From Muribaculaceae bacterium (lineage in GTDB: Bacteria; Bacteroidota; Bacteroidia; Bacteroidales; Muribaculaceae), in NCBI GenBank assembly GCA_017427945.1, contig JAFRRT010000013.1:87311-151310 (forward strand): 64,000 nucleotides of DNA, in the 5' to 3' direction. Position 1 is the stretch's first letter, and each line of letters begins with the position of its first letter. Shown here piece after piece: positions 1-47,556 of this stretch. Under the pieces are notes generated by a model, which ran no database searches, had not been told where the DNA came from, and saw only the letters and a list, made by a program, of their open reading frames with translations. A program made the translations under genes and the position numbers.

Positions 1-285
1 TTCACCTTCATGCATCGAGCTATCGATGGTAATGATGGCACCGCCCACACGCTGGCCGTCGGCATCGACAGCCTCGTAGGCTTCGGCGCCCTCAGCCCTC
101 AATGACCTGTAAAAGTCCTCATCAGGCAGCACCTGCCACTGGTTGGGGTCTTTTCCATCGTCTTTATTATATGCCTGGAAACCATGCTGGAACGCTTCCT
201 GCATCTCTTCCTTGAAAGCAACAGTGTGCTCCTCAACGAGCCGAATCAATTGTATTCTCTTTTCCATTGGATATAGAGGTTTCAT
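1..285 (-). CDS. GNAT-like N-acetyltransferase, partial (C-terminus outside window)
   Basis: The first 95 codons are visible; the gene runs off the left edge. The N-terminus reads MEKRIQLIRLVEEHT and continues to a GGAIITID stretch that looks like a beta strand of the GNAT fold. No acetyl-CoA loop is visible, so the family call is tentative. The start is ambiguous: ATG at 285 overlaps the crcB stop in an ATGA tetranucleotide, which suggests coupled translation, while ATG at 267 gives the more family-like start MEKR. It lies directly downstream of crcB on the same strand and probably shares its transcript. Confidence 0.55.
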   Translation of the reverse strand, partial: MKPLYPMEKRIQLIRLVEEHTVAFKEEMQEAFQHGFQAYNKDDGKDPNQWQVLPDEDFYRSLRAEGAEAYEAVDADGQRVGGAIITIDSSMHEGE

Positions 286-647
286 TTAGCTAGCCAGTAA
301 CCTAGGGCAACACAAGAGACACCAAGGACAACACTTCCTATCGCATACAGACAAAAGGCGGTAATATTGCCATTCTGTAGAAGGGTCAGTGCTTCTTTAG
401 AGAAGGTTGAGAATGTGGTGAAACCGCCACAAAGTCCAACGGTCAAGAACAAATTGACACTTGGCGAGAAGTTGGGATGCCTGCCGGCAAAACCGCAGAT
501 TAACCCTATGATTAGACAACCAACAAGATTCACCGTGAACGTGCCCCACGGAAACACGTTATGTGACCTCATAGCTATAGCAATCAGGTAACGCAACACG
601 CTACCAAGAAAGCCTCCAGCCCCGATATAAAGAAGATCTTTTATCAT
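282..647 (-). CDS. crcB: Fluoride channel CrcB/FluC
   Basis: Small inner-membrane fluoride exporter of 121 residues, a normal size for the family. The glycine-rich GGFLGSVLRYL segment after the first helix and the GGFTTFSTFSKE motif (about residues 74-85), with the conserved polar track residues, are clear. Four hydrophobic segments fit the dual-topology dimer known for FluC. The start is fixed by a TAtcTTTGC promoter box only 10 bases upstream, which leaves no room for a fluoride riboswitch. The stop overlaps the next gene by four bases. Confidence 0.93.
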   Translation of the reverse strand: MIKDLLYIGAGGFLGSVLRYLIAIAMRSHNVFPWGTFTVNLVGCLIIGLICGFAGRHPNFSPSVNLFLTVGLCGGFTTFSTFSKEALTLLQNGNITAFCLYAIGSVVLGVSCVALGYWLAK

Positions 648-656
648 AATGCAGGT

Positions 657-665
657 GCAAAGATA
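657..665 (-). promoter_or_regulatory. -7 promoter box of crcB
   Basis: TATCTTTGC on the minus strand matches the Bacteroidota TAnnTTTG box. It ends 10 bases before the crcB ATG. I see no clear -33 TTG. Confidence 0.6.
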
Positions 666-712
666 CAGCTTTTTCCGAGATTTCTATGGGCTCTTCGCAT
701 AGTATTTACGCC

Positions 713-741
713 GATTTTGGTCATGATTGAGACCAAAAATC
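713..741. promoter_or_regulatory. Inverted repeat in divergent promoter region, candidate operator
   Basis: ATTTTGGTC and GACCAAAAAT form arms of 8-9 bases around an 8-base spacer. The repeat lies between the crcB box and the methyltransferase promoter. Its size and spacing fit the site of a dimeric regulator. No regulator gene is adjacent. Confidence 0.4.
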
Positions 742-755
742 CCCTGTTTTAGGTA

Positions 756-788
756 TTGCCGCGCGTGTTATTCTCGCTGTACATTTGC
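756..788 (+). promoter_or_regulatory. Promoter of the methyltransferase at 813
   Basis: TTG at 756-758 and TACATTTGC at 780-788 are separated by 21 bases, giving a 5' leader of about 20 bases before the ATG at 813. Confidence 0.6.
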
Positions 789-812
789 AGCCTAATATAA
801 ATCATTAAAGTT

Positions 813-1424
813 ATGGGATTATTAAAATCTTTTTTTACTAATTGCGCCAATCCTAAAGGACGGATGGGGCGACTGATGCTATGTTTTATGAATTTCGGTC
901 ACGCGCCGCTCACCAACTGGGGGCTGGATATTGTCGATTTTCAGGACGAATGGACCATGCTTGACATCGGCTGCGGTGGTGGTGCTACACTGAAGAGGCT
1001 GCTCAAGAGAAGCAACGGCAGCCGGGTATATGGTATCGATATCTCGGAGGAGAGCGTAGCAAAGGCACGCAAGGTGAATGACGCACTGCTCGGCAAACGG
1101 GTGTTTGTGACACAAGGTTCTGCCGAGAAACTGCCTTACGACGATGGCCTGTTCGACCTCGTGACTGCGGTCGAGACGGTCTATTTCTGGCCCAGCCTGC
1201 CCGACTGCCTACAAGAGGTGCACAGGGTGCTGAAGCCGGGCGGTAGTTTTGCCATCATGGTGGAAGTGCTGGAGGCGGACTCTAAGTGGACAGACCTTTG
1301 TGAGGGCATGACCGCCTATACACCAGAGCAGTTGAAAGACTTGCTCGACGAAGCGGGATTCATCCAGACGGGAATCCACCGAAAGAAACCGTCATACGCC
1401 ACTATCCTCGGCGTAAAGCCATAA
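813..1424 (+). CDS. Class I SAM-dependent methyltransferase
   Basis: This 203-residue protein carries the SAM-binding motif I LDIGCGGG (about residues 51-58), the acidic ribose-binding loop YGIDIS, and the later LPYDDGLFDLV and VLKPGG motifs typical of UbiE-like small-molecule methyltransferases. The substrate is not evident. It starts a same-strand run with the membrane protein at 1446 and the second methyltransferase at 2065. The two methyltransferases are not close copies. The upstream inverted repeat suggests it is regulated. Confidence 0.85.
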   Translation: MGLLKSFFTNCANPKGRMGRLMLCFMNFGHAPLTNWGLDIVDFQDEWTMLDIGCGGGATLKRLLKRSNGSRVYGIDISEESVAKARKVNDALLGKRVFVTQGSAEKLPYDDGLFDLVTAVETVYFWPSLPDCLQEVHRVLKPGGSFAIMVEVLEADSKWTDLCEGMTAYTPEQLKDLLDEAGFIQTGIHRKKPSYATILGVKP

Positions 1425-1445
1425 CTATGCACACAATTAAAAACT

Positions 1446-2000
1446 ATGAGCAAAATCAGCTATTTACGGACTTTGGGCTTTGCGGCCCTTTATGTAGTGA
1501 CCATCTTCATGACCGCTTTTCTGGGATTTCTTGCCCCCTGGGCTTGGGTTTTCTTTCCTGTTGTTACAGCCCTGATAGGGGCCTTATCCTATTATTGCAC
1601 AGCTATTAGATGGCAAAAGTTTGGAGTAGGCACATTACTCGCTGTTGCCCTTGCTGCCTTCCTGCTGGCAGTTGGCGAGTGCGACCTGTCAAAAGCCCTA
1701 CTGATGCTGTTGTCTGGCGTGTTGTCTGATGTTGTCCGACATCTCATCGGTTATGCCACATTGAAAGGACAGTCGTTAGCTTATCCCGTATTATCAATAG
1801 GTGTCATTGCCTGGATTCTGCCGCTGTGGACTCGCACGGAATGGTATTACCAGGGTGCCACCGAAGAAATTGGGGTTGACTACGCAAACGGATTAATGAC
1901 GTTTGCCAGTCCTTGGTGGCTTCTGGCTGTTGTACTGACGACAGCCGTGGCTGGATTTTTGGGCATCAGGTTTGCTTCAAAGGTTATCAAGTCAAAATAA
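1446..2000 (+). CDS. MptD/Trep_Strep-like ECF transporter S component, orphan
   Basis: Hydrophobic protein of 184 residues with five to six predicted membrane segments. The pattern (an APWAWVFFPV segment, a long middle helix pair, an SGVLSDVVRHLIGY loop and a final helix ending in lysines) resembles the MptD/Trep_Strep family of substrate-binding subunits of energy-coupling factor transporters. Such subunits need an ECF T subunit and two ATPases, and none is encoded in the window. It sits 21 bases after the first methyltransferase and 64 bases before the second. The substrate is unknown. Confidence 0.6.
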   Translation: MSKISYLRTLGFAALYVVTIFMTAFLGFLAPWAWVFFPVVTALIGALSYYCTAIRWQKFGVGTLLAVALAAFLLAVGECDLSKALLMLLSGVLSDVVRHLIGYATLKGQSLAYPVLSIGVIAWILPLWTRTEWYYQGATEEIGVDYANGLMTFASPWWLLAVVLTTAVAGFLGIRFASKVIKSK

Positions 2001-2002
2001 CC

Positions 2003-2039
2003 TTGCAACCTGGTTGCGCTCAGTCTGGTGTGCCTTTGC
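2003..2039 (+). promoter_or_regulatory. Palindrome and possible promoter before the methyltransferase at 2065
   Basis: GCAACC-T-GGTTGC (2005-2017) is a perfect short palindrome directly upstream of TGCCTTTGC (2031-2039), an imperfect -7 box. It could be an operator over an internal promoter. Confidence 0.35.
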
Positions 2040-2064
2040 ACACACAAACGAAAGCAAAACGATT

Positions 2065-2727
2065 ATGGCAGACAGAATCAAGAAATCATACAAGTTTAGT
2101 AAACGTTTCTATGACGATGCGCTTACGCAGAGCAAATGGTGGAGCCGCTTGTATTTCAAGTGGCTGTGGGGCGGAGTCGATGACAACCGGATTGCCGACG
2201 CAGTCTTGGGTTACATCCCTGATGACTTCTCGGGACGGCTGCTTGACGTCCCCGTCGGCACGGCTGTGTTCACGGCCGAAAAGTATGGCCGCCTTACTCA
2301 AGCCGACATCACTTGTGTGGACTATAGCCGAGACATGTTGGAACAAGCCGAAAGACGGTTCCGTGAAGCCAACATCAGCAATATCAAGACTATGCAAGGC
2401 GATGTGGGCGCACTGCCGTTCAATGACGGTACGTTCGACATTGTGCTTTGCATGAACGGGCTTCATGTGTTCCCCGACAAGTACAAGGCATACGACGAAA
2501 TCCTCCGCACCTTGAAGACGGGCGGCAAGCTGCTGGCCTGCTTCTACATTGCAGGCGAGAAAAAGACCGCCGATTGGCTTGCCAAAACCGTCATGACGCG
2601 CATGAGCTGGTTCACGCCGCCTTTCGACACCGTCGATGATGTGCGGCGCCGACTGGAACCAAACTATGAGATTCTTGATTTCCAAGTGGAGGGTGCTATG
2701 CTTTATTTCAGGGCAAAAAAGAAGTGA
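2065..2727 (+). CDS. Class I SAM-dependent methyltransferase (UbiE/Methyltransf_11-like)
   Basis: From ATG 2065 the protein has 220 residues (MADRIKKSYKFSKRFYDD). The motifs are LLDVPVGTAVF (motif I, with Val-Pro-Val instead of the usual Gly-x-Gly start), CVDYSRDML (acidic loop), GDVGALPFNDGTFDIVLCMNG and LKTGGKLL. An upstream in-frame extension to 1972 lies inside the previous gene and is not supported. The substrate is unknown. The gene is followed directly by the remnant of a thioredoxin reductase gene. Confidence 0.85.
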   Translation: MADRIKKSYKFSKRFYDDALTQSKWWSRLYFKWLWGGVDDNRIADAVLGYIPDDFSGRLLDVPVGTAVFTAEKYGRLTQADITCVDYSRDMLEQAERRFREANISNIKTMQGDVGALPFNDGTFDIVLCMNGLHVFPDKYKAYDEILRTLKTGGKLLACFYIAGEKKTADWLAKTVMTRMSWFTPPFDTVDDVRRRLEPNYEILDFQVEGAMLYFRAKKK

Positions 2728-2983
2728 TGTGGATACGATACTGATTGGATTGTTTGTACCGATGCTTGGCATCGTGCTCGGCTCGACAATGGTGTTCCTG
2801 AACGGCCAGATTTACCTTGATGAGTAAGGCTACATCAAGTTGACAAGTCATAACACCGCTACCAATGTCGAGGGCATCTTTGCCGCTGGCGACGTCGCCG
2901 ACCTGCACTACCGTCAGGCCATCATAGCAGCCGCAGCAGGCTACCGAGCCGCCATCGATGTGAAACACTACATATCACAATAA
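2728..2983 (+). pseudogene. trxB: Thioredoxin reductase C-terminal fragment, broken by a stop codon
   Basis: Read in one frame, this stretch gives LNGQIYLDE, a TAA stop at 2825-2827, then GYIKLTSHNTATNVEGIF, AAGDVADLHYRQAI and AAAAGYRAAIDVKHYI, ending at a stop at 2981. This is the conserved C-terminus of low-molecular-weight thioredoxin reductases: the second FAD-binding motif GDV followed by HYRQA. The stop replaces the glutamine usually found before GYI. The N-terminal FAD and NADP domains and the CxxC are absent. It is therefore a decayed fragment, and the break lies next to the ssrA-like scar at 3142. Confidence 0.75.
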
Positions 2984-3141
2984 TTTTGTCCTCATTCTTA
3001 TAAAGAACGACGCAAAGGCTCTGAATATCTTTGAAATAGACATTATTTTCCAATATAAAATCTATCAATCCCCAAATTTGACTAAAATCAATTACCCTAT
3101 GCCGAAAACAGTGGGTTCAAGAGCAGGGTCTTAAAAAGAAT

Positions 3142-3196
3142 AAAAATAAGTCGCTGATATTCAGCGACTTAAGTCGGTGGAGCTGGAGGGGCTTGA
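3142..3196 (-). repeat. Direct-repeat copy of the tmRNA 3' end plus terminator (att-like scar)
   Basis: The first 50 bases match 10081-10130, the 3' end of ssrA and its terminator, with only three differences, all in the hairpin loop. Similarity fades after 3196, inside what would be the T-loop. The orientation is the same as ssrA. The body of a tmRNA is missing, so this is a fragment and not a second gene. A duplicated 3' end downstream of ssrA is the usual footprint of tyrosine-recombinase integration. Confidence 0.8.
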
Positions 3197-3298
3197 GAAT
3201 GATATGACTTTTTAATACTTGATGTTATATTTTAATGATTTTCAGCGGGTTATGAGATTTTGATTAAAATGTCACATCAGCAACTATGCTTATTATAT

Positions 3299-3344
3299 CA
3301 CAAAAGGGGGGAATACAAAACGGCCTTTATTCCCCCTTTTGTGT
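3299..3344. repeat. Long inverted repeat/hairpin
   Basis: Arms ACAAAAGGGGG...GAATA and TATTCCCCCTTTTGT pair over about 15 bases around a 12-base loop, with one bulged G. No clean T-run follows on either strand. It may end ccsBA transcription or be a remnant of the integrated element. Confidence 0.5.
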
Positions 3345-3488
3345 CCGTAGAAAATCATTTACTGGTTGCCCATGAAAATCTAAAGGCGGATTACTATTAC
3401 AGGAAATCTGCACTTTACTAACTTTTTAGACATGAATCTAATTATTTGGCTCTAACAGAGCCCTCATTAAGGGTCTTTTTTTATTACG

Positions 3489-5699
3489 TTATGCGTAGCT
3501 GTGCATGCCTCCGAGGATGAAATTGACGCCGAAGTAGGTGATGAGAACGCTAAGGAAGGCGATGATGCAGTAGCCGTGGAAAAACATGGGTTTGCTGAAC
3601 AACTTCAGTGATTGGTTGTGCAGGGGCAAAGCATAGACAATGAGCGTGATCAGTGCCCATGTTTCTTTGGGATCCCAACTCCAGTAAGTTCCCCATGAAA
3701 CATTGGCCCATACAGCACCGATGAACACACCTGCAGTCAAAAGAAAAACGGCAGGATAGAGAATGACCTGCCCCACAACGTGCAGACGCTCAACCATGGC
3801 TTGGTCACGACGAACCGTGAACGCCAGCACTCCTCCCAACATAAGGAAGGCCAGCAGGGCATAAGCGACCATAATGACCGCGACATGGATGCTCAGCAGC
3901 GGTGAGGCAAGCACGGGCATCAACTGGGTAATCTGCGGGTTGCTCTCGCCGAAGGATGCCACCATCAATGCCAGTCCTGCTGTGAGAATACCGAACGGCA
4001 GAATCAGCATCAGTTTTCTGTGGGATAACAGGGTCAGCGCCATCGTCGCCCATGCCATGAACTGCATGGTTTCAAATCCGTTGCTCATGGGCACATGGCC
4101 ACTGATAATCCAGCGCAGGATGAGTGCGGTAGTGAGGTAAGCCAGCGAGAGGGCAAGAATGACAATGGCTGCAATCCTTACCCCTCGCGGCAACCGCTGC
4201 GAACGTGCCACACAGCGGCATGTGATGATGAACAGGATGATGCCTAGGGTGGCTAGTGCCATCGACAACGGGCGATCCCATTCCATGCTGTTGTACAGTT
4301 TTTCAGCCCTGAATGCGGTGTCGCTGGGCAGCATGTCACCGCATTCTTTGGTCTGATACTTCTTGAGTTTGGTTATGAATTGGTTTGCTCCGTTCCAGTC
4401 TTGTGCGCTGACCATCTCATAGAGATAGTCCATGCCGTTGCGCAGGAATAGCCATTTGCCGTCGTCAATGTCGTGTGGTACTTCTAGCGAGCCGTGGCTG
4501 TACCATTCGAGTTTGCCGCCATGATTGAGAGGGAACAGTTTTATCATAGTGCCTGCTGCGACCATGTTGGCTATCTGGTAACGCTCGTCGGATTCGCCCA
4601 AGGCGCGTATGGTGGCCTGGTCATCGACGGCCTGCAGGCTGTCGATGGCTTGCTGAATCTTTCCGGTTGAAACCGTACGGTAGAAGTCCTCGAGCGAGGC
4701 ATACTTGCCATCTATACCCAAAAGGCGTCGCACGTTGCCGTTTTTCACCTTAATCATCGGCTCGTCTTTCCAGTCATCATAGTAGAATATCCATCCTGAT
4801 GCCACCTGCTCGGCAGTGAGACCTTTATAGGTTGTTTTACCGCAGAGTTTTGCCGTGAACTGGCGGGCAAACGTCTGGAACGGGCAGATGCGATTGTTGT
4901 GAAGTATGTACAGGTTACCCATATTGTCAGCGACATCGCGTGGCAGTGTGCGGGGTTGGGCACTTGCCGTGAAAGTGGCTGTAAGGAACAGAATCACAGC
5001 CAAAGTGCCACGTTTGAGTAGGGGGTGGCGTAGCAGTGCCCTGAAAGCCGTCCTGCGGTCAATAAGCACGGCAATCATGCCCGCGAGTAGCAGACCATAG
5101 CCCACGTAAGTCACACCGATGCCCCACGGGTCATGCGCCACGGTGAAGACAGCCCCGCGTCCCTCAGCGTCATAGCCTGACTGGTAGAAGCGGTAACCGC
5201 GATGGGAGAAAACCTTGTTCATAGAGACTGTTCCCGTTACGGTCGTGCCGTCGGCATCATTGATTTGGATACGGCTCACAAAGTCCATCGGTGACGGCGT
5301 GCCGGGATAGGTCTGGATATCGAAGGACTCGAGTGTGACCGTGAACGGCAGCGTGTGGCGGGTGCCGTCGGTTGTGGTGAAAACATCGATGGCTTGATCA
5401 TTCATCACCTGCATCTTACCATGCAGGGCCGTGAACCAAGTGATGCCCGCACCACACAGGATGATCAGCAGTGCAAGGTGGAGCAACATTACCGCAGGCC
5501 GTTTCCATATCCTGCGCAACAGCATGTAGCACAGCCCAGAAACCGCAATGGCTGTCCATAACGCCACAAAGGCGATGTTGTCATAAAACCAGGCTCTTGC
5601 CGCTGGCGTTCCATTGGTTTTCTCTACCACAGTGGCTGTTGCCAATACTGCAAGCATGACGATAAGGCACCCAAAGGATATGCGTTTCAATGTTTTCAT
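3489..5699 (-). CDS. Cytochrome c biogenesis protein CcsBA (ResB-CcsA fusion)
   Basis: Membrane protein of 736 residues, the heme exporter and cytochrome c synthase of system II. The N-terminal part (about 1-230) resembles ResB/CcsB, with three early membrane helices and a further helix near 195-215. A large periplasmic region follows (about 240-470). The C-terminal CcsA part (about 490-736) has many helices and the tryptophan-rich WWD heme-handling signature at 664-680, ending WSWDPKETW. It is the last gene of the porin-imelysin-cytochrome operon. Its likely client is the di-heme protein just upstream. Confidence 0.88.
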   Translation of the reverse strand: MKTLKRISFGCLIVMLAVLATATVVEKTNGTPAARAWFYDNIAFVALWTAIAVSGLCYMLLRRIWKRPAVMLLHLALLIILCGAGITWFTALHGKMQVMNDQAIDVFTTTDGTRHTLPFTVTLESFDIQTYPGTPSPMDFVSRIQINDADGTTVTGTVSMNKVFSHRGYRFYQSGYDAEGRGAVFTVAHDPWGIGVTYVGYGLLLAGMIAVLIDRRTAFRALLRHPLLKRGTLAVILFLTATFTASAQPRTLPRDVADNMGNLYILHNNRICPFQTFARQFTAKLCGKTTYKGLTAEQVASGWIFYYDDWKDEPMIKVKNGNVRRLLGIDGKYASLEDFYRTVSTGKIQQAIDSLQAVDDQATIRALGESDERYQIANMVAAGTMIKLFPLNHGGKLEWYSHGSLEVPHDIDDGKWLFLRNGMDYLYEMVSAQDWNGANQFITKLKKYQTKECGDMLPSDTAFRAEKLYNSMEWDRPLSMALATLGIILFIITCRCVARSQRLPRGVRIAAIVILALSLAYLTTALILRWIISGHVPMSNGFETMQFMAWATMALTLLSHRKLMLILPFGILTAGLALMVASFGESNPQITQLMPVLASPLLSIHVAVIMVAYALLAFLMLGGVLAFTVRRDQAMVERLHVVGQVILYPAVFLLTAGVFIGAVWANVSWGTYWSWDPKETWALITLIVYALPLHNQSLKLFSKPMFFHGYCIIAFLSVLITYFGVNFILGGMHSYA

Positions 5700-5777
5700 C
5701 TGGAAAGACTGAAAGGTGGAGAGCGGTTAAACCGACCCTCCACCCGAATTATACTATATGAAGAGTTGTTATAGCCA

Positions 5778-7370
5778 TTAAATGGACTCGATAAAGGTCA
5801 CCATCGCATCACGGTCAGCCTTACTGAGTTGGCGGAACTTCTCGACGCTGCGGCGGGCATCACTCTGGGCGTTGCCGTGCCACATGATGGCCTCGATGAC
5901 ATTGCGGGCGCGGCAGTCGTGCAGACGGTCGTCGGCACCGGTGCATTTCTTGCTCAGGCCACGTCCCCACAGCGGTGTGGTACGGCACCAGCCCGTGCGG
6001 ATGTCATTGACCATGTACATGCGGTGCTGAATCAGGTCGGTATAGGGCCAGATGGTCTGATGCGGATAGCGGGGCAGCATGTCGGCATAGGCTCCGACAA
6101 AGAAGTTGTTCGGGTCGCGGATGACGTCATCGCCCGTAGTCCAGCTGGGACGGTGGCAATAGGCGCAGCCAATCTCGGTGAACAGTTCCTTGCCCCGCAG
6201 GAAGTCGGCATCATTGACGTTTCGGGCTGCAGGAACAGCAAGGCCACGGTGCCATGCCATAAGGTCGATGTACTCCTGGTCGGTCATCTCCACGTCGAGC
6301 GTCTTGCTCATCAGGTAGTTGTAGATGTCGGTCTCGGGGTCGCCGGTCACATTCTGCTTGGGGAAGTACTTGTAGAAGTCGGCCTGCACCTCAGGATCCT
6401 TACTGGCGATGGTGGCGTAGGCAGCGGTCATGTAGTGATAGCGGCGGTCGCTGCGGGTGACGTTGGTGATGTTCCAGATGGCGTTAGCACCAGCGCCGTC
6501 CTGCAGGTTGGCACGTGACAGGGCATAGGTGTAGCGGCGCACGTACTTGGTGCCGTCGCCTTGTGCAGTGTTGGAATAGTAGTTGAAGTCGCTGCCATTC
6601 CAGATGGCGGGGTTGAGCGTCACACCTGCGGCCTGTTCAGCCTCGTACTGGGCACGGATGTCCTTCTCATCAATGGCGTCGAGCAGACCTGTTCCATAGA
6701 GACCGATGGTGCTCTCCAGGCGCACGCGCAACTGGCTGTAGTCGATGTCCTTGCCTCCTACCTGCAACGGCACATAGAATGCGCTCAGCGGGATGGTGAC
6801 TTCGGGATAGATGAGGCTGTAGGTCTCGCCGTCAGGGAAGCGGTTGCCCCACTCATCGGTGTATTCGCGCCAGTCGATGACGATCTGGCTCTCGTCGATG
6901 GGTGCCTTGAAAGGTTTTTGAGCCTGGGTCTGCGGCATACCCGTAAGCGACGACAGGTAAGTGTCATTCTCATCGGTGAGCACAAGCAGGTAGCCGTTGC
7001 CCTGCACGTTGGAATTATAATTCAACTGTCGGGCGCCATGACCGTAGCTAGGATGGCAGGTGATGCAGGCATCGCGCACCCACAACGGTCCCAATCCGCG
7101 CATAGGCGTTGACATGCTCGTATCGGAGTCAAACGGTGATTCAAAGATGCGCTCACCACGTTTGAATGATGCCAGCAGTCCCTGCTTATTGATGGCTTCG
7201 GTTTCTTGTTCGTAAGCCGAAGCGGTTACATTGCTGGTTGTGCCCAATCGGCCACCTGTGTAATAGTAGTCGGGCAATTCGGGCGTCACTTCATTGCCAC
7301 CGCCCTTCTCATCGCTGCACGATGCCAGGGCTAGAAATGTCAGCGCCAATAATATCCAATGCTTTTTCAT
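5778..7370 (-). CDS. Di-heme oxidoreductase (DHOR/DUF1111, putative peroxidase) lipoprotein
   Basis: This 530-residue protein begins with a lipoprotein signal (LALASC, Cys18). It has two c-type heme sites, CITCH (102-106) and CAYCH (402-406), spaced as in the MauG/CCP-like DHOR family. It should sit in the periplasm or on the outer membrane and be matured by CcsBA. The gene lies 21 bases after the imelysin gene on the same strand. Pairing of imelysin and DHOR genes is known in iron-acquisition loci; a role in iron redox chemistry here is inference. Confidence 0.88.
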   Translation of the reverse strand: MKKHWILLALTFLALASCSDEKGGGNEVTPELPDYYYTGGRLGTTSNVTASAYEQETEAINKQGLLASFKRGERIFESPFDSDTSMSTPMRGLGPLWVRDACITCHPSYGHGARQLNYNSNVQGNGYLLVLTDENDTYLSSLTGMPQTQAQKPFKAPIDESQIVIDWREYTDEWGNRFPDGETYSLIYPEVTIPLSAFYVPLQVGGKDIDYSQLRVRLESTIGLYGTGLLDAIDEKDIRAQYEAEQAAGVTLNPAIWNGSDFNYYSNTAQGDGTKYVRRYTYALSRANLQDGAGANAIWNITNVTRSDRRYHYMTAAYATIASKDPEVQADFYKYFPKQNVTGDPETDIYNYLMSKTLDVEMTDQEYIDLMAWHRGLAVPAARNVNDADFLRGKELFTEIGCAYCHRPSWTTGDDVIRDPNNFFVGAYADMLPRYPHQTIWPYTDLIQHRMYMVNDIRTGWCRTTPLWGRGLSKKCTGADDRLHDCRARNVIEAIMWHGNAQSDARRSVEKFRQLSKADRDAMVTFIESI

Positions 7371-7391
7371 GTTTCTCGTGTTTTAAGATTT

Positions 7392-8546
7392 TTATTTAAG
7401 TCCTTCGATGGCTGCATCCAGGGCATCAAGCAACTGGTTGCAGGCGTCAACGGCCTTCTGTGTCTCGCTTTTGCTCAGGTGGTTGCGGAAAGGAGCGGGC
7501 ATGCACGATACTTCCTTGATGGCGTTATCGATGGCACTGCGCACGTTGCTGTCGAGTGATGCGTTTACCTTATTCATATAGGCTGCCAACGAGTTGTTGT
7601 TGACTGTGCCGTCAAGTGAGCCGTAATAGGCGTTGCGCACGCTGCGGATGTTGTCGGTGAAGTCGGCGATGGAATTCCAGCTGTACCAGGACTCCACGTC
7701 AAGAACGTTGCCCGAGTTCACGGGGTCGGTGATTTTGGTATTGCCCACCTCGTCACTGATGTCGCTGGCACCGGTCAGGATCTGTTCCATGGCTGCAAGT
7801 TGAGTCTTGTAAAGACTGTTTCCAGCCTTTCCGGCATCAATCATGTTCTCACCGTAGTTGAAAGAAGGCTCCAGTTCATGTTCCTCAAGGATAGCACGTT
7901 TGGCGCTGCTGATGTTGTTCATGCCCGCCCATGAGGCTTCAAGACGCACGGTCTGGTTGGCGAGGTCTTGGGCAACGGCAGCGTTGTAGATGAGTTCGCG
8001 CTCGGTGATGTCGCCCACGTTGCGGGCGGCACCGTCACGGAAGAGCACGTACTCCACAGCATGGAAACCCAGCAGACCATAGCCCAACGTTGCAAAAGCG
8101 TCGGCTCCCGCGCCATCCTCGTCGAGGGCTGCGATGAGCGAACTGTTGTTCAGGATGTTGTCTAGTTGGGACTTCTGCAGGGGCCATGAGTCAATGTGCG
8201 GATCAATGTTGTAGTCGGCGGCGGCACCGAACAGGAAGGCCTCGCTCAGTTCCCAATATTTGCGGGCACTGATCCACTTGTCGCAGCACTCCTGGACTTT
8301 GCCCTGTGTTGGATTCTCGCGCAACTGCTGGCACAATGCGGCCAGTTCATTGGCTTCATCGGCCAGAGATTTGTAGGTGGGAACGACAACGCCGTTCACA
8401 TACTGGGTGATGATGGCCGTTTTCTTGCTGTCAAGCTGGTTGGGATCAGGGTCATCGTTACTGTCGCTGCAAGCGGCAAACCCCAGCGTCATGCCCGCAA
8501 GTGTGACGAGCATGAGCGCGTTCTTGAAAAGTTCAATTGCTTTCAT
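7392..8546 (-). CDS. Imelysin-family (M75, IrpA-like) lipoprotein
   Basis: Lipoprotein of 384 residues (lipobox GFAAC, Cys26). The imelysin signature GxHxxE is present as GFHAVE (His162, Glu165) in a mostly helical sequence. A GAAADYNIDPHIDSWPL stretch matches the conserved first half of the domain. Imelysin proteins such as EfeO and IrpA bind iron or serve in its uptake; protease activity is doubtful for most members. It lies between the porin and the di-heme oxidoreductase, with gaps of 46 and 21 bases. Confidence 0.88.
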   Translation of the reverse strand: MKAIELFKNALMLVTLAGMTLGFAACSDSNDDPDPNQLDSKKTAIITQYVNGVVVPTYKSLADEANELAALCQQLRENPTQGKVQECCDKWISARKYWELSEAFLFGAAADYNIDPHIDSWPLQKSQLDNILNNSSLIAALDEDGAGADAFATLGYGLLGFHAVEYVLFRDGAARNVGDITERELIYNAAVAQDLANQTVRLEASWAGMNNISSAKRAILEEHELEPSFNYGENMIDAGKAGNSLYKTQLAAMEQILTGASDISDEVGNTKITDPVNSGNVLDVESWYSWNSIADFTDNIRSVRNAYYGSLDGTVNNNSLAAYMNKVNASLDSNVRSAIDNAIKEVSCMPAPFRNHLSKSETQKAVDACNQLLDALDAAIEGLK

Positions 8547-8592
8547 TTGTTCTATCTTTTTATGGTTAACGTGTTTGTGTCATAGTGGTGTC

Positions 8593-9915
8593 TCAGATAT
8601 GGAAAAGGCCACTGTAGCAGATGCCCAGGCTCACTGTCGGTTCGTTGTTGTACTGCGATGAAAGGATGCGGTAGCTGTATTCGCCCTTGATGACGATCTG
8701 CGGTATGGGATAGTAGTTGACGCCCGCAGTGACCTTCTGGCGCTGCCACATCTTCTCGTCGGTCATGTTCTTGACCGTCTTGTACATCGAGTCATAGTAG
8801 TCATAACGTCCGAACAGATACAGCCGTTGCCCGTCGGCATGCAGGCGGGCAACTTGTGAAAAGATGTCATAACCTGCCTCGATGCCCAATGCGATAGCGG
8901 CCTCACCGATGTTGGTCTTGGGGAAGGGAGAGTCAGCACGGGTGGACATGTTGGCGGTAGTGATTTCGAGCGAGTTGCTCAGGTGGCCGTAGTCAAAGTT
9001 GCCGCGAGCCACGATGTTGTGGTCATTGTACAGGAAGTCCACCGCACCGATGGCTACGGTGCCGTGCAGACCATTGTACTTGCCCGTGGCGTTGAGCGTG
9101 TTATTGGCGCTGTTGCCCAGATAGCCACTAACACTCAGGCGCAGACCTTTGATGGAACGGTTGTCGATGCGCAGCGCACCGGCATAGGAGGTTGCCATCT
9201 TGAACTCGTAGGGGCTGCCTGCGCCATCGTGGATCCATCCCTTGTTGCCGAATCGGTCAGCGTCCAGGCCTGCGATAAACATCGCCTCGTAGCGCCACTT
9301 GCCCACGTTTCCCCACAGGCTCACGCCTGTCTCATGCCATGTGCAGGGCATGATTGTGTTCTCGCCCTCGGGACGATAGACAGTGAAGAATTCGGTGGGC
9401 ATGTGCGCGTTATTCGTTCCACCCACAGGCACAACCATGTGGCCCATGCGCAAGTTCACAGCGTGCGAGAAAGATTTCTGCAGCCAGAACTGCTCGAGGG
9501 CGACTTCGCCTCCACGTTCCACTTCAGATTCATATTCGCCGGTCTCTTCTTCCTCGATTTCGACAGCGCTCTCGGTGCCGCCGTGCTCAAACTCAATCTC
9601 GGTTCCCAGCGACCACCCTTTGCCGAAGTCGTAGCCCAGATAAAGGACCACATGGGGCAGGTCAAACTGACCGAAGCCCTTGTCACCCTTGTAGAGTTCG
9701 GCATTGGTGTAACGCTTGTAGTTGTTGCTATAGAACATGCGACTGGCCACAGCCTCGCCATAGCCGCCGATGGTCAGCCGGTGGGTAGGCGTCTCGGTGG
9801 GTGTCTCAGACACTTCGGCCTGGGGCTTCTCCAGCAGATTGTCAGCGTGAATTGCTGCCGTGCCTATCGTCATACATGCCAGCAGTGTTGTCAGTAATCT
9901 CGTTGCCATTTTCAT
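8593..9915 (-). CDS. Outer-membrane porin-like beta-barrel protein
   Basis: Protein of 440 residues with a signal peptide (cleavage probably after ADA-like sequence near residue 25) and many alternating-hydrophobicity strands rich in Tyr and Gly. It ends in a typical barrel strand, SLGICYSGLFHI. An acidic loop of Glu/Ser residues lies near 120-140. It resembles the phosphate-selective porin O/P and related families. It is the first gene of the operon with imelysin, di-heme oxidoreductase and ccsBA. It could let the substrate of this module cross the outer membrane. ATG 9915 was chosen because a promoter box sits 22 bases upstream. Confidence 0.75.
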   Translation of the reverse strand: MKMATRLLTTLLACMTIGTAAIHADNLLEKPQAEVSETPTETPTHRLTIGGYGEAVASRMFYSNNYKRYTNAELYKGDKGFGQFDLPHVVLYLGYDFGKGWSLGTEIEFEHGGTESAVEIEEEETGEYESEVERGGEVALEQFWLQKSFSHAVNLRMGHMVVPVGGTNNAHMPTEFFTVYRPEGENTIMPCTWHETGVSLWGNVGKWRYEAMFIAGLDADRFGNKGWIHDGAGSPYEFKMATSYAGALRIDNRSIKGLRLSVSGYLGNSANNTLNATGKYNGLHGTVAIGAVDFLYNDHNIVARGNFDYGHLSNSLEITTANMSTRADSPFPKTNIGEAAIALGIEAGYDIFSQVARLHADGQRLYLFGRYDYYDSMYKTVKNMTDEKMWQRQKVTAGVNYYPIPQIVIKGEYSYRILSSQYNNEPTVSLGICYSGLFHI

Positions 9916-9936
9916 ATTTTATATAGTTTATCGGCT

Positions 9937-9945
9937 GCAAAATTA
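9937..9945 (-). promoter_or_regulatory. -7 box of the porin-imelysin-DHOR-ccsBA operon
   Basis: TAATTTTGC on the minus strand, 22 bases before the porin ATG. It lies below two terminators that follow ssrA, so the operon has its own promoter. Confidence 0.65.
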
Positions 9946-9983
9946 CCCAGACGGTGACCGCTATACAATCCCAAAATCAAATG

Positions 9984-10020
9984 AAAAAAAACGCTCCCCC
10001 TCACTATTTTTGGGGAGAGC
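9984..10020 (-). terminator. Second terminator downstream of ssrA
   Basis: On the minus strand GCTCTCCCC and GGGGGAGC form a hairpin followed by a run of eight Ts. It separates ssrA from the porin operon. Confidence 0.75.
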
Positions 10021-10080
10021 CTGCATTTGTCGCAACTATTTTTAACCAACCAATATTACTAAATAAAAATACAGGGGGTA

Positions 10081-10112
10081 AAAATAAGTCGCTGAATATC
10101 AGCGACTTAAGT
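10081..10112 (-). terminator. ssrA terminator
   Basis: AAGTCGCTGA-TAT-TCAGCGACTT forms a ten-base stem on the minus strand just after the tmRNA 3' end, followed by ATTTTTT. Confidence 0.85.
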
Positions 10113-10116
10113 CGGT

Positions 10117-10512
10117 GGAGCTGGAGGGGTTTGAACCCTCGTCCAAACGTGGAACTAATAAGGTTTCTACATGCTTAGTCCTGACTTGGTTTTCGATTGA
10201 CGGCAGGCTCTGGACCACCAACCGCCAACTTATCCTCTAAATTTCAGACGCGGCCCGAGGCTTGCCTTGTCCTATCGCCGATATTCCTGCACCACCGTTT
10301 CAACCCGCCTCGGCGCGAGGGCAGTTGGGTGATGTCTCGTCACAACCCCTTGGGCTGTGATAAAGCCGAACTTACTGTGCTTCGGTTAGGCAGCGAGAGC
10401 GTAGTTGTTTTCGCCATTTAAAAATGTCAATGACTGATATTATAGAGCATAGCCATTATCGCTCTGCATGCTTGCTTACCACTTCTACACGCTGTCAAAG
10501 CCAGTCAGCCCC
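10117..10512 (-). ncRNA. ssrA: Transfer-messenger RNA (tmRNA)
   Basis: The 5' end GGGGCTG (10512) pairs with the 3' end CAGCTCC (10118-10124), followed by the discriminator A. The T-arm is GGGTTCAAACCC. The bases after the discriminator are CCG, so CCA is probably added after transcription. The tag frame ends GENNYALAA and a stop (10386-10415), as in other Bacteroidota. The tmRNA rescues stalled ribosomes and marks the peptide for proteolysis. A consensus promoter lies about 20 bases before the mature 5' end. Its 3' end is duplicated at 3142. Confidence 0.97.
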
Positions 10513-10612: not shown

Positions 10613-11236
10613 CTATTTTTCTTCTATGAGTTCGTGCCAGTAGGGTGATTCCTCAGGAATGAAGGCGCCGGACTGCAGGAATTGGTAGATTTTCAGACAT
10701 GCCCATGCGTCGATGGCAGCATAGGATTGCTGGCCCTCGGTGAGGTATTGCGCCTCCCAGTTGGTGAGCTGCTGCCCCTTGCTGATTTTTTGCTCAAAGA
10801 GGATGGCATAAATCTTTTGCAGACTCATGTCGCTGATCTGGAATTGCTTGACGAGCTGTTGCAGCTCAACAAAGCCTGCCGGATGGATGTCGCAGACGCG
10901 TGTCAGTTGGTTGAAGTCGTCGGTGGTGGACAGGCCGACCTTGATGATGGAATCATCCTCGATAAGCTCCTTGAGGGGAGCGGGGATGCCGGTCATGTTA
11001 AGCCTGAAGAGGAAGGCGTCGTCATCGGTCGACAGCTGTAGCAGTGCAACGGTATGGCGGTCGCCACGCTTGAAAGTAGGTCTCGTCTCGGTGTCAAAAC
11101 CAATGACAGGCGCTGTGCGCAGGGCGTTAACGGCGCTCTTGACTTGAGAAATGGCATCGACGATGTGAATATGACCGGGGAAGGTCACCCTGGTCATCTG
11201 GTTCACGGCCTGTTTTTCGATTGATACTACATGCAT
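10613..11236 (-). CDS. 3'-5' exonuclease, RNase D-like (DEDDy)
   Basis: The 207-residue protein is a single exonuclease domain. The FDTETRP motif (Exo I), the middle Asp region TDDFNQL, and YAAIDAWACLKIY (Exo III with Tyr and Asp) identify the DEDDy superfamily. There is no HRDC domain, unlike full RNase D. Bacteroidota homologues have the same short form; the substrate, RNA or DNA, is unknown. The first ATG (11236) is favoured because the residues before the catalytic core align with the usual N-terminus, and the promoter box is only seven bases away. Confidence 0.85.
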   Translation of the reverse strand: MHVVSIEKQAVNQMTRVTFPGHIHIVDAISQVKSAVNALRTAPVIGFDTETRPTFKRGDRHTVALLQLSTDDDAFLFRLNMTGIPAPLKELIEDDSIIKVGLSTTDDFNQLTRVCDIHPAGFVELQQLVKQFQISDMSLQKIYAILFEQKISKGQQLTNWEAQYLTEGQQSYAAIDAWACLKIYQFLQSGAFIPEESPYWHELIEEK

Positions 11237-11243
11237 GTCGACT

Positions 11244-11252
11244 GCAAAGGTA
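11244..11252 (-). promoter_or_regulatory. -7 box of the RNase D-like gene
   Basis: TACCTTTGC ends seven bases before the ATG, predicting a leader of only a few bases. Confidence 0.55.
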
Positions 11253-11329
11253 GTGATTTTTGGTGAATAGTCGATAGTTAATGGAGAATAGTTTTGTTTT
11301 TCACGCCTAATATCTTGCCCTTGATATGT

Positions 11330-13555
11330 TTACAGGCGGTTGACTTGCTTGACCCCCTTGATGTTAAGGATTTTCCTGATAAGCTCGTCGAGCAATGAGA
11401 TGTTGCTGATATTGACGGTCAGCATGCCCTCAAAGAATCCGCCCTCGGCCTGTACCGAGATGCTTCGCAGCAGGCAATCGTCGGTCTTATTGATGACCGA
11501 GGTGATGGATGAGACAATGCCTATGTCGTCACGGCCCAGGACTTTGAGCGTGGCGATAAACTGGCTCCCTGCTTTGCCTGCCCAGCGCGTGCGGATGAGG
11601 CGATAGGGGTAACGCTCCTTGAGGTGCTTCAGATTCTTGCAGTCGGTGCGGTGAATTTTGATGGCACCGTCGCTGGCGACAAACCCCTCGATGGGGTCGC
11701 CGAAGATGGGGTTGCAGCAACGTGCCAGCTTATAATTGATGCCCTTGATGTCGTTGCCGATGGTCAGGATGTCGTCGCTGAAGCGGTGGTGGCTCTCGCC
11801 CTCGGTGGGCTGTTGCAGGACAAACTCCTCGGCCGTGCCCCTTGCTGTGCTGGTATCAGCCGGTTTGGCAGCGAATGCCATGTATTGCTCAACCACGGTG
11901 TTCACGTCGATGATGTCTTCCTGTATGGCGGCATAGAACTCGGTCGTCGTTTTATAGCCCATCTTCTTGATGACGCGTGCCAGAGTGGCATCGTCGGCCT
12001 CGATTTTGCGGTTCTTGAAACGCCGTTGCAGTGTTTCCCTTGCCAACTGTGCCTGATGTGCGCGCCGCTCGTTGATGGCGTTTTTGATCTTGTTACGCGC
12101 CTTACTGGTGACAGCGATGTTGAGCCAGTCAAGGCGCGGCGTCTGCGTTGCCGACGTGATGACCTCGACGGTGTCACCGCTCTTGAGGCGGTAATTGATT
12201 TTTTGGTTCTTGCCATCGACCTTGCCACCCATGCAGGTGCTGCCCACGCGCGTGTGGATGTGGAAGGCGAAGTCGAGTAGCGTGGCGCCTTGCGGCAGGC
12301 GGAAGAGGTCCCCCTTGGGCGTGAACACAAACACCTCGTTGTTATACAGGTTCGTGTCCATGTTGCGCATCAGATTCATCTGTCCCTCCTGTCCGCTCGC
12401 TTCAAGCATTTCGCGCACATCGTTCATCCACTTGTCGGCGCTGCCGTCGCTCTTGATACCCTTGTAGCGCCAATGGGCCGCCACGCCTCTCTCGGCCGTC
12501 TCGTCCATGCGGCGGGAGCGTATCTGTACCTCTACCCACTTGTCTTCGGGACCATAGACGGTGATGTGCAGTGACTCATAGCCGTTGCTCTTGGGAATGG
12601 TAATCCAGTCCTTGAAGCGCGATGGGTTGGCTTTGTAGATATCGGTAACGATGGAGTAGGCGAGCCAGCAGGCGCGTTTCTCGTCCTTCTCCTGGGTGTC
12701 GAGAATGATGCGAATGGCAAACAGGTCATAGATGCCGCCCAGGTCCACGCCCTGCTTCTGCATCTTTTGCCAAATCGAGTTGATGGACTTGGTACGCCCC
12801 TTGAGCTCATATTTCAGACCCTCGGCTTTGAGCCTCTCGTCGATGGGTTTGATGAAGTCCTCCACGTATTTGTCGCGCTCTTCCTTGGTGACCATCAGGC
12901 GGTTGGCAATCTGTGTGAACACCTTGCGGTTAAGGTACTTCAGGGAAGTGTCTTCCAGCTCGGTCTTGATGGCATAGAGTCCCAGTTTGTGGGCCAGCGG
13001 AGCATACAGGTAGCGGGACTCACTGGCAATCTCGTGCACGAATTTCTCGTTGGGGTGATGGTTGATGGCACGCATGAGCGCCAGGCGGTCGGCGGTCATG
13101 ATAAGGATGACGCGCACGTCCTCGGCAAAGGTGAGCAGCAGTTTGTGGAAGTTCTCGTCCTCAACGGCAGCCTGTTTCTTGTACAATGGCGCAACATTCA
13201 GTAGTCCGTGAACCACACGGGCGATGTCCTCGTCAAACAGCGCTTTCACTCGCTCCGGGTTCAAGTAATTGTCACGGCACAAGTTGTAAATCATTGTGGC
13301 GATGACCATCGTGCGGTCAGGAACGATGTTGTCGCACAAGGTGAGAGCGGTGCGCAGATGCCTAATGACCGGGTTGAGACCGTACTGGTCACGGCGGAAG
13401 ATGCCCGCCTCGGTGATGCCTCGCTTGATGAGGCCGTGCACCGTGTTGATGTCCTGGCATGACAACTGACTGCCAAGGCGTTCGTTGATGTCCTTGACAA
13501 GCTGCAGCAATAGCGCTCGCTCCTCTGCGGTGAAATAATCCTGTGTCGTTGCCAT
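11330..13555 (-). CDS. relA: RelA/SpoT-family (p)ppGpp synthetase with degenerate hydrolase domain
   Basis: From ATG 13555 the protein has 741 residues. The order is a pseudo-HD domain (about 20-200), a synthetase domain (about 230-350; RTKSINSIW, GYESLH and EVQIRSRRMDETAERGVAAHW), TGS (about 390-450; FTPKGDLFRLPQGATLLDFAF) and a C-terminal ACT domain. The hydrolase HDxxED is replaced by YNLCRD, so hydrolysis is probably lost and the protein should act as a RelA-type synthetase. A longer start at 13633 is ruled out by the promoter box at 13569-13577. Confidence 0.9.
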   Translation of the reverse strand: MATTQDYFTAEERALLLQLVKDINERLGSQLSCQDINTVHGLIKRGITEAGIFRRDQYGLNPVIRHLRTALTLCDNIVPDRTMVIATMIYNLCRDNYLNPERVKALFDEDIARVVHGLLNVAPLYKKQAAVEDENFHKLLLTFAEDVRVILIMTADRLALMRAINHHPNEKFVHEIASESRYLYAPLAHKLGLYAIKTELEDTSLKYLNRKVFTQIANRLMVTKEERDKYVEDFIKPIDERLKAEGLKYELKGRTKSINSIWQKMQKQGVDLGGIYDLFAIRIILDTQEKDEKRACWLAYSIVTDIYKANPSRFKDWITIPKSNGYESLHITVYGPEDKWVEVQIRSRRMDETAERGVAAHWRYKGIKSDGSADKWMNDVREMLEASGQEGQMNLMRNMDTNLYNNEVFVFTPKGDLFRLPQGATLLDFAFHIHTRVGSTCMGGKVDGKNQKINYRLKSGDTVEVITSATQTPRLDWLNIAVTSKARNKIKNAINERRAHQAQLARETLQRRFKNRKIEADDATLARVIKKMGYKTTTEFYAAIQEDIIDVNTVVEQYMAFAAKPADTSTARGTAEEFVLQQPTEGESHHRFSDDILTIGNDIKGINYKLARCCNPIFGDPIEGFVASDGAIKIHRTDCKNLKHLKERYPYRLIRTRWAGKAGSQFIATLKVLGRDDIGIVSSITSVINKTDDCLLRSISVQAEGGFFEGMLTVNISNISLLDELIRKILNIKGVKQVNRL

Positions 13556-13568
13556 GCGGTAATTTTTG

Positions 13569-13577
13569 GCAAATTTA
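13569..13577 (-). promoter_or_regulatory. -7 box of relA
   Basis: TAAATTTGC, 13 bases before the ATG at 13555. It is divergent from the DUF4301 promoter 44 bases away. Confidence 0.6.
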
Positions 13578-13620
13578 GTCTTTTTGTGGCTATTTTTTTG
13601 CAAGAACGTGTTTAAAAATG

Positions 13621-13628
13621 TAATTTTG
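13621..13628 (+). promoter_or_regulatory. -7 box of the DUF4301 gene
   Basis: TAATTTTG, 25 bases before the ATG at 13654. Confidence 0.6.
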
Positions 13629-13653
13629 GGCAAAATTTAAAAAACCAAGTGAT

Positions 13654-15177
13654 ATGTGGAACGAAAAAGATCAACGACTGATGTCTGACAAGGGCATTAC
13701 CGAGTCAGTCATCGAGGCTCAACTCAAGAGGTTTGAAACAGGTTTCCCGTGGCTCAAGCTTGCTGCTGTGGCAACCGTGGGCAACGGTATCATCCGTCTT
13801 GACCCCAAAAAGGAAACTCAATGCATAAAGAGCTGGAAAGAGTTTCAGGGCGGTGGCACAACGATAGAAAAATTCCAGCCCGCATCGGGCGCAGCCAGCC
13901 GCATGTTCAAGAACCTGTTCGCATTTGTCAACGAGGGCAAAGCGGCACCCGATACCGATTTCGAACGTCAGTTCTTTGAGGGCATCACGCAGTTCGCCTT
14001 TTATCCTCAGCTGAACAAGACCTGCGTGAGCCTGTACCAGAACAATGTGGGCGAACTCATGGAGGCAGGACGCTATGTTGACATACTCAAGGCGCTGCTC
14101 CTGCCCGAGGGCATGAATTACGGCGCTCTGCCCAAAGCGTTGCTTCGTTTCCACCGTGCTGCAGCAGGCACTGTCCATACGCCTCTCGAGGAGCATCTTG
14201 AAGAGGGCGCACAGTATGCTGCCGACAGCCGTCGCCGTGTGAGCATCCACTTCACTGTATCTCCCGAACACCGTGCAGGCTTTGAAAAACTCATCAAGGC
14301 CAAGGTGCCCTTGATGGAGAAGGTGTGGGGCGTGACTTATGACATCACCTTGAGCGAACAAAAAGCCTCGACCGACACGATTGCCGTGAAGATGGACAAC
14401 ACTCCATACCGCGACAACGATGGCAATCTGTTGTTCCGTCCTGCAGGTCATGGAGCCTTGCTCGAAAACCTCAACGAGCGTGATGCCGATGTGGTATTCA
14501 TCAAGAACGTTGACAATGTGGTGCCTCTGCGCTTACGCAGCGTGACCACGCGTTACAAGAAGGTACTTGGTGGCTATCTCGTACAGGTTCAGCGACAACT
14601 GAAGAAATACCTTGAAACCCTCGATAAGCCCAATCCCAAGAGCAGCGACCTCAAGGCGATGCTGCGCTATGCACGCCAGACGCTGTTTATCGTTGACGAG
14701 GCTACCGACAGCATGGACGATGCTGCCCTTGCCGAATGGCTGCGCGACAAGTTCAACAGGCCCATCCGCGTGTGTGGCGTTGTGCCCAACGAGGGAGAAC
14801 CCGGTGGTGGACCATATCTGGCATACAATCCCGACGGCTCCTATTCGCCTCAGATTCTTGAGTCGGCCCAGATTAATCCCGATGCCCCCGAAGCTGTCGA
14901 GATGATGCGCAGCGGCACCCACTTCAACCCTGTTGACCTGGTGTGCTACATCAAGGACTACAAAGGCATCAAGTTCGACCTCCGCAAGTTTGTCGATCCT
15001 GACACTGGCTTTATCAGCATTAAGAGCAAGGACGGTGTGGACATTAAAGCCCTTGAGTTGCCCGGATTGTGGAATGGCTCAATGAGTAATTGGAATACCG
15101 TGTTTGTCGAAGTGCCTATCGACACCTTCAACCCTGTCAAAACCGTCAATGACCTGTTGCGTCGAGCACATCAGTAA
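13654..15177 (+). CDS. DUF4301 family protein
   Basis: Soluble protein of 507 residues found mainly in Bacteroidota. Recognisable family stretches are the N-terminal KGITESVIEAQLKRFETGFPW, PASGAASRMFKNL, the VPNEGEPGGGPY segment and the C-terminal GLWNGSMSNWNTVFVEVP. The function is unknown. The glycine-rich nucleotide-like segments suggest a sugar-nucleotidyltransferase-type fold, which is only an inference. There is no signal peptide. It lies 12 bases before the thioredoxin-like gene, probably on one transcript. A second in-frame ATG at 13681 is possible. Confidence 0.82.
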   Translation: MWNEKDQRLMSDKGITESVIEAQLKRFETGFPWLKLAAVATVGNGIIRLDPKKETQCIKSWKEFQGGGTTIEKFQPASGAASRMFKNLFAFVNEGKAAPDTDFERQFFEGITQFAFYPQLNKTCVSLYQNNVGELMEAGRYVDILKALLLPEGMNYGALPKALLRFHRAAAGTVHTPLEEHLEEGAQYAADSRRRVSIHFTVSPEHRAGFEKLIKAKVPLMEKVWGVTYDITLSEQKASTDTIAVKMDNTPYRDNDGNLLFRPAGHGALLENLNERDADVVFIKNVDNVVPLRLRSVTTRYKKVLGGYLVQVQRQLKKYLETLDKPNPKSSDLKAMLRYARQTLFIVDEATDSMDDAALAEWLRDKFNRPIRVCGVVPNEGEPGGGPYLAYNPDGSYSPQILESAQINPDAPEAVEMMRSGTHFNPVDLVCYIKDYKGIKFDLRKFVDPDTGFISIKSKDGVDIKALELPGLWNGSMSNWNTVFVEVPIDTFNPVKTVNDLLRRAHQ

Positions 15178-15189
15178 TTAGATGCAGAA

Positions 15190-15645: not shown

Positions 15646-15664
15646 TAAGTCGAGACATACTAAT

Positions 15665-15698
15665 AAAAGGGTGGGGGCATAGGCTCCCACCCTTTATT
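15665..15698 (+). terminator. Terminator after the thioredoxin-like gene
   Basis: AAAGGGTGGG pairs perfectly with CCCACCCTTT (15666-15695), followed by ATT. Confidence 0.75.
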
Positions 15699-47504: not shown

Positions 47505-47556
47505 GTTGTAATGTTATTGGTTTAAAGGATTAATGAAGTTATGTTGTGATTACACT

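Follow-up and report, generated by a model that had tools for sequence, protein, structure and literature searches.

A very probable integrase-less island at the 3' end of ssrA in a Muribaculaceae bacterium, and other islands at the same site in its genus

The DNA analysed here, referred to as the window, is a stretch of 64,000 nucleotides from contig JAFRRT010000013.1 (positions 87,311 to 151,310) of the Muribaculaceae bacterium assembly GCA_017427945.1. It carries an intact ssrA gene, encoding the transfer-messenger RNA (tmRNA), followed by an operon of four minus-strand open reading frames (ORFs) and then by a second copy of the last bases of ssrA (Table 1). The four ORFs occupy nearly all of the segment between the two copies and encode a porin-like protein, an imelysin, a di-haem oxidoreductase (DHOR) and CcsBA. 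An earlier note on this DNA had listed these four genes without an integrase, and Pfam confirms three of them; the 440-aa porin-like protein keeps the name given there, as a Pfam search found no family for it at E<=0.001. The imelysin and DHOR families suggest a role in periplasmic iron handling with a c-type cytochrome, which the adjoining CcsBA would mature. We found no integrase in the segment, either in the ORF list or with a hidden Markov model (HMM) of the recombinase family, and no transfer genes, as judged from the four ORFs that fill it.

Table 1. Features of the ssrA locus in the window, with the complete island of the relative G068 for comparison
Feature	Position	Strand	Evidence
ssrA (tmRNA), intact; target gene with the attachment site at its 3' end	10113..10512	-	ARAGORN (10114-10512); Rfam RF00023, E=3.3e-51 (10113-10512)
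ssrA-side att core CCTCCAGCTCCAC, 13 bp	10115..10127	-	shared with att copies in relatives
Hairpin terminator 3' of ssrA	10085..10109	-	11-pair stem
Cargo: porin-like outer-membrane protein, 440 aa	8593..9915	-	ORF; conserved in synteny
Cargo: imelysin (Peptidase_M75)	7392..8546	-	PF09375, E=1.9e-57
Cargo: DHOR, two CxxCH motifs	5778..7370	-	PF06537, E=7.4e-35; motifs from translation
Cargo: CcsBA (ResB and CcsA parts), cytochrome c maturation	3489..5699	-	PF05140, PF01578
Right end (RE), apparent integrase-side end, conserved; inverted repeat GGGGGAATA..TATTCCCCC	3197..3345	+	identity to relatives' copies; G053 alignment; integrase-upstream motif
Far (displaced) att core, 13 bp	3177..3189	-	repeat comparison; core shared with relatives
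Hairpin terminator beyond far core	3147..3171	-	11-pair stem
Probable left end of a second, outer island	3001..3120	-	first-island left end of G100, 84% and 87.5% in two pieces (63 and 80 bp)
Decayed 3' fragment of trxB-like gene, outer segment	2747..2980	+	in-frame stop; homology to intact gene
G068 island	L224:958-9345 (C17:39457-47844)		ssrA core C17:39457; integrase 46261-47646 (-); displaced core 47832, orientation as ssrA

The repeat of the ssrA tail spans 56 bp (3141-3196 against 10079-10134) at 93% identity, with both copies in the same orientation. The earlier note had given 47 identities in 50 positions, and this count holds; its second interval was off by one, since 3142-3191 pairs with 10080-10129 and not with 10081-10130. 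The repeat consists of two layers, a 13-bp core from the 3' end of ssrA and then a hairpin terminator. Only 13-15 bp are common to the attachment (att) copies, and the remainder of the 50-bp repeat is terminator. All three mismatches fall in the terminator loop, which reads TAT in one copy and ATA in the other; the loop centres are inverted on an unchanged stem, and more loop variants occur at other att sites. The count of terminator-like sites itself carries no meaning, because eight were found against 6.9 expected from shuffles, and the ssrA terminator and its copy have the longest stems among them. Using a 66-bp query from the displaced copy we found two copies in the 2.77-Mb, 39-contig draft genome, the other being the ssrA end (E=8e-18). 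Of six further matches, two reflect the palindrome at these same sites and four are short (14-19 bp, E of about 1-2). Because the whole-genome search gives these two copies and otherwise matches at chance level, the displaced tail is neither a dispersed repeat seen far from ssrA, which the earlier note had named as a danger to its reading, nor a chance match. The locus therefore has an intact target gene and a displaced 3' fragment in direct orientation, the arrangement that defines a tmRNA-integrated island.

Immediately inside the far core lies a conserved stretch of about 150 bp, the RE, which is retained though no integrase is present. We compared it across 101 genomes of the genus, the genome of the window included (genomes are numbered G, contigs C and extracted stretches L), and 21 of them gave a match at E<=0.001. 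Seven matches are strong, with 91-96% identity over 123-144 bp (two each in G028, G100 and G026, one in G033), and there is one at 81% in G052 together with shorter, weaker ones. A core adjoins six of the seven strong matches, diverged in the case of G026 C52. In an alignment of ten sequences of our own choosing, the RE is homologous to the stretch of G053 that separates the core from a tyrosine recombinase gene, and the inverted repeat is common to both. A short A-rich/GGGGG motif was also found within ~420 bp upstream of 15 of 18 integrases of one family, defined by E<=1e-40 to a G046 protein, including those away from ssrA cores. Given the G053 homology and this motif, the RE looks like the integrase-side end of an element, which does not by itself prove that the window island once held an integrase. 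At the opposite end, 40 bp covering the terminator and part of the core (10081-10120) are shared without a mismatch with an island of G028, at its left end.

On the other side of the far core, the 73-74 bp nearest to it (3103-3176) show 80-88% identity to island left ends in G028, G100 and G052. Because this flank resembles the left end of another island, the locus is probably a tandem array, and the outer flank is likely, not proved, to be a decayed outer island. The trxB fragment in it had already been described as decayed; it contains an in-frame stop and shares 79% identity over 62 aa with an intact TrxB-like protein encoded ~0.7 kb from the G046 integrase. At the DNA level, 184 bp of the fragment are 78% identical to the intact gene, which in G046 and G017 stands near the integrase and whose product matches PF07992. 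None of the relatives examined has the outer genes of the window beside ssrA, and a close homologue of the Trep_Strep gene occurs only in G100 C17 (85%; others 24-32%), at a locus with two neighbouring methyltransferase genes and no ssrA or RE match on 20 kb. Part of an RE recurs ~11 kb further out on the same contig, outside the window (C7:79043-79123, 83% over 81 bp), and another piece of 50 bp stands at C7:77255-77304; an M28 peptidase gene separates them (C7:77255-79123, or L059:17256-19124), with no recognisable core.

The ssrA search matched 90 of the 101 genomes. Downstream stretches were examined for part of these, and ssrA was present on 37 of the first 40 stretches, two of them from the genome of the window. 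An exonuclease gene sits directly upstream of ssrA in 20 of the 37 (19 from relatives), and the genes downstream of ssrA in the window were near ssrA in that genome only. The earlier note had considered that all relatives might keep the operon beside ssrA; none of those examined does. We then scanned for the core with a terminator stem, an RE motif or tmRNA sequence beside it, dropping chance core-like matches by eye and leaving out ten ssrA stretches from distant species (L063-L072). Among the 28 genomes in which the ssrA 3' end was recognised, at least 12, that of the window included, have a same-orientation downstream core (G000, G015, G019, G028, G049, G052, G058, G069, G082, G093, G094 and G100), a lower bound because contigs often stop near ssrA. 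Two sites were left uncounted, a second ssrA-like tail 2.1 kb downstream in G006, which has no RE, and a decayed core-like site with a stem 2.3 kb downstream in G078.

The site is thus filled by other islands in 11 further genomes of the scan, and also in G068 outside it. These units measure 3-25 kb and are bounded by the 13-bp ssrA core. G052 has four in tandem (13.1, 9.0, 12.7 and 25.3 kb) and G028 has two, and att sites stand in a row without ssrA on the scanned stretch in G100 C24 (three) and G053 C30 (two). In G067 the sequence directly after ssrA corresponds to the first 979 bp past the outer att of G053 (91%, from base 7 after the core); the ssrA of G053 itself was not found in its assembly. 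The pair may represent an empty and a filled form of the ssrA site, not of the window island. A wider search for the att pattern in genome contigs returned 15 stretches, 14 of them in metagenome-assembled genome records named uncultured Prevotellaceae, Muribaculaceae or Porphyromonadaceae, several of which name water buffalo or goat gut. The fifteenth, in a Pontiellaceae record, was taken as chance. Viral contigs gave no match to the att pattern or the G053 integrase.

A 13.1-kb island carrying a polysaccharide utilisation locus (PUL) bears on movement. Between G052 and G093 the identity of this island, counted from base 5 after the core to its end, is 99.4%, and that of the 0.9 kb of exonuclease and ssrA sequence upstream is 82.9%. 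In bins of 100 columns identity is 99-100% inside the island and drops to 83-91% on the ssrA side, with 65-96% further upstream, and to ~30-50% past the far core, so the boundaries are sharp at both ends and coincide with the cores. The same island was found in G094 (97.4%) and G058 (~95%), and its first 1.2-2.5 kb follow ssrA in G057 and G013; of the six genomes only G013 is in the list with the integrase family. The relatives show precise insertion of integrase-less units, and by analogy this supports an insertion in the window.

Other islands at the site carry varied cargo, as judged by Pfam and PADLOC on representatives: SusC/SusD-type PULs with GH97 or GH32, TPR proteins, a TOTE primase-helicase with an AAA ATPase (PADLOC candidate PDC-S27) and DUF3990 (PADLOC candidate PDC-M13B). 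A TOTE-type island adjoins ssrA in G015, G082, G049 and G019 and is second in the row in G052. In G049 C13 (L042:1567-5957) the two sizeable genes of a 4.9-kb ssrA island are the TOTE primase-helicase and the AAA ATPase, and G019 and G082 have a related island of similar size. Another PUL island, with a PfkB kinase, an MFS transporter, GH32 and SusC/SusD-like proteins, sits behind another island in G028, G100 and G052 and probably serves fructan. The DUF3990 gene, ADP-ribosyltransferase-like, lies near the RE of several islands (L095:5036-5551, L046:13251-13766, L096:8740-9255), and in G026 two att-like sites, one with a diverged core, stand 1.5 kb apart with this as the sole sizeable gene between them.

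The earlier note had raised the possibility that relatives hold an integrase between the repeats, and G068 does: ssrA, an 8.4-kb island with a family integrase and the displaced core all stand on one contig, with a similar hairpin-like sequence after each core. The recombinases neighbouring the cores are of the tyrosine type (PF00589). Four larger genes of unknown type are also present in the G068 island, which is a good model of the autonomous form. With the family HMM we found an integrase in three one-sided segments, which had been chosen for it, and in none of 19 two-sided islands. Adding G068 makes one of 20; the other 19 gave no family integrase, with other recombinase families not searched in every island. 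In the draft genome of the window itself no family integrase was found at E<=1e-40 to the G046 protein.

The operon has a wider distribution than the island. An imelysin match, in some cases weak or partial, is present in 27 of the 100 other genomes, and we examined operon loci in 20 of these, some on contigs of only 4-10 kb. The order porin, imelysin, DHOR, ccsBA is kept at 19 of the 20 loci as far as the contigs reach, and the neighbouring genes differ except in a few pairs. In G056 C39 (L217:9544-11283) an internal deletion of the operon has left an imelysin fragment joined in frame to ccsBA. The segment 3489-9915 is a cytochrome module complete with a maturation protein of its own, of constant order and variable surroundings across the genus. 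At the 20 loci no stretch showed ssrA beside the operon, and the RE gave one 37-bp match only, in G040, between operon genes; four isolated core-like matches with up to two mismatches were taken as chance. In G094 C79 (L109:1-840) the operon adjoins genes for a phosphopantetheinyl transferase and a MatE transporter, and in G028 and G026 such a gene pair sits just outside an att, a hint that the G094 operon unit is also connected with the ssrA array. A literature search on the operon found nothing mentioning imelysin.

Taking these observations together, we regard window positions 3190-10114 as an integrative island at the 3' end of ssrA, lacking an integrase and non-autonomous, with a probability of about 0.9. 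The earlier note had proposed an old island that lost its mobility genes. Its ssrA-attached, integrative character is borne out by the repeat, the RE and the islands of relatives; this particular island may once have been autonomous. We propose that a tyrosine recombinase belonging to the family of G068, G053, G046 and G017 would have recombined the 13-bp core of an element with the core at the ssrA 3' end. The gene would keep its full length because the core is restored, and the element would bring what now follows ssrA, terminator included, pushing the old 3' end to the far side. We infer this event, and any order in which islands accreted here, from the comparisons above. The island might once have been moved by a recombinase from another locus or by an adjacent island. 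The window island is probably stationary now, because no family integrase was found in the draft genome.

Several observations weigh against this interpretation. Neither the window island nor its outer flank directly beside ssrA was found in any relative examined, and its empty site was not seen. At its left end (9916-10084) we found no island-type match past the terminator. The upstream flank of ssrA is not uniform, because the exonuclease was not found in 15 of the 37 stretches, mostly from more distant species, and in G078 and G091 it is on the opposite side of ssrA at a distance of 14-16 kb. In these two (L048, G078 C44; L050, G091 C16) ssrA points at the exonuclease and relA genes, as if ssrA and the array downstream had been inverted. 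The RE match in G033 C1 and the piece at C7:79043-79123 have no clear core. The integrase family occurs in only 16 of the 101 genomes, so a helper would not always be present, and only four of 19 family loci lie beside an ssrA core (G046, G017, G053 and G068), the others having other flanks. Composition is ordinary: GC is 0.55 in 3489-9915 and 0.49 in 1-3100, 0.53 in 10613-16000 and 0.50 in 16000-64000. The comparison with the flanks suggested in the earlier note does not mark the operon as foreign, and with 0.55 against 0.49-0.53 nearby GC content is uninformative about origin.

Could the displaced copy be a mere duplicated terminator with a chance run of ssrA sequence, and no integration at all? 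Much of the 50 bp is indeed terminator, and such hairpins accompany many of the att sites and may readily be copied. However, the core adjoins a conserved RE in the window and at other copies, in the orientation of ssrA, and adjoins family integrases in four genomes; the RE matches, the core scan, the G053 alignment and the complete G068 island all contradict a terminator-only origin, which we consider very improbable. A subtler alternative is that the att repeats are older than the operon, which would have entered by homologous recombination between the ssrA-end and terminator repeats of an existing array, replacing the interior of an older island. This would account for an RE, core and terminator that match the G028 and G100 islands while the interior differs, for the changing neighbours of the operon and for the missing island-type left end. 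We think it rather unlikely, as in close pairs the island boundaries meet the core on both sides and are not random, as site-specific recombination predicts.

As to how such units move, it is possible that a helper integrase routinely transfers integrase-less islands in trans, like very large cassettes. In favour of this, 19 of the 20 two-sided islands have no family integrase and even so one kind shows 99.4% identity between diverged hosts and has exact ends; the RE, too, is retained. Against it stand the small number of genomes with the integrase family, in assemblies that are incomplete and islands that were not all searched for other recombinase families; moreover, the same pattern would result if the islands moved in cis with a neighbouring element or lost their integrase once transferred. 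We therefore hold movement in trans as a tentative idea.

Cis-mobilisable elements (CIMEs), as in families of streptococcal integrative and conjugative elements (ICEs), carry att sites at either end, lack integrase and transfer genes and occur in tandem. The window island is CIME-like in these respects, with no intact ICE seen next to it. Its RE is homologous to the integrase-side end in G053, but no intact parent element of the window island was found. Integron cassette arrays are made of units that are mostly single ORFs, each with an attC site, and have the IntI integrase at the start of the array. Unit sizes of 3-25 kb and boundaries at the 13-bp ssrA core do not fit such an array. The closest precedent is found in Dehalococcoides (McMurdie et al. 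2011, PMC3146451), where tandem islands downstream of ssrA are flanked by short direct repeats of the gene's 3' end, with a conserved motif beside the repeat and niche cargo. The arrangement is nearly the same as here and 15 of 31 islands there lack an integration module, so the window island belongs to a known kind; those authors suggest CIMEs and accretion. Their integrase is the serine recombinase DsiB, with the cut placed in the T-loop, whereas the genus studied here has tyrosine recombinases and carries PULs, TOTE and other cargo, and the Bacteroidales host and the recombinase type set it apart.

Islander (PMC4383910) accepts islands, those within tandem arrays included, only where each has an integrase. 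The window locus resembles its tDNA islands in having an intact tmRNA gene, a displaced 3' fragment in the same orientation and an island between. Unlike them it has no integrase inside, for which reason we file it as an integrase-less derivative and not as an autonomous island, and it would go unreported; the G068 island would fit the Islander definition. Literature searches, whose coverage left out most subscription papers, found no description of ssrA island arrays in Bacteroidales. One retrieved paper (PMC6764341) concerns a Riemerella island and, in the text available, has tmRNA only in its reference list.

We suggest, as a picture that is for now rather doubtful, that ssrA in this Bacteroidales genus, probably of the ruminant gut, anchors mostly integrase-less islands of 3-25 kb with the 13-bp core and often an RE of ~150-200 bp, which a tyrosine recombinase may move between species in trans. 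This would amount to a giant cassette system for PULs, TOTE and metabolic operons, the window operon among them. A search that, like Islander, accepts only islands with an integrase of their own would overlook these units, as 19 of the 20 two-sided islands illustrate. Because the core and RE provide an exact handle for excised circles and empty sites in existing reads, movement of the integrase-less islands is directly testable. The islands at ssrA appear to be a route by which genes for carbohydrate use and for conflict seem to pass between species of gut Bacteroidales.

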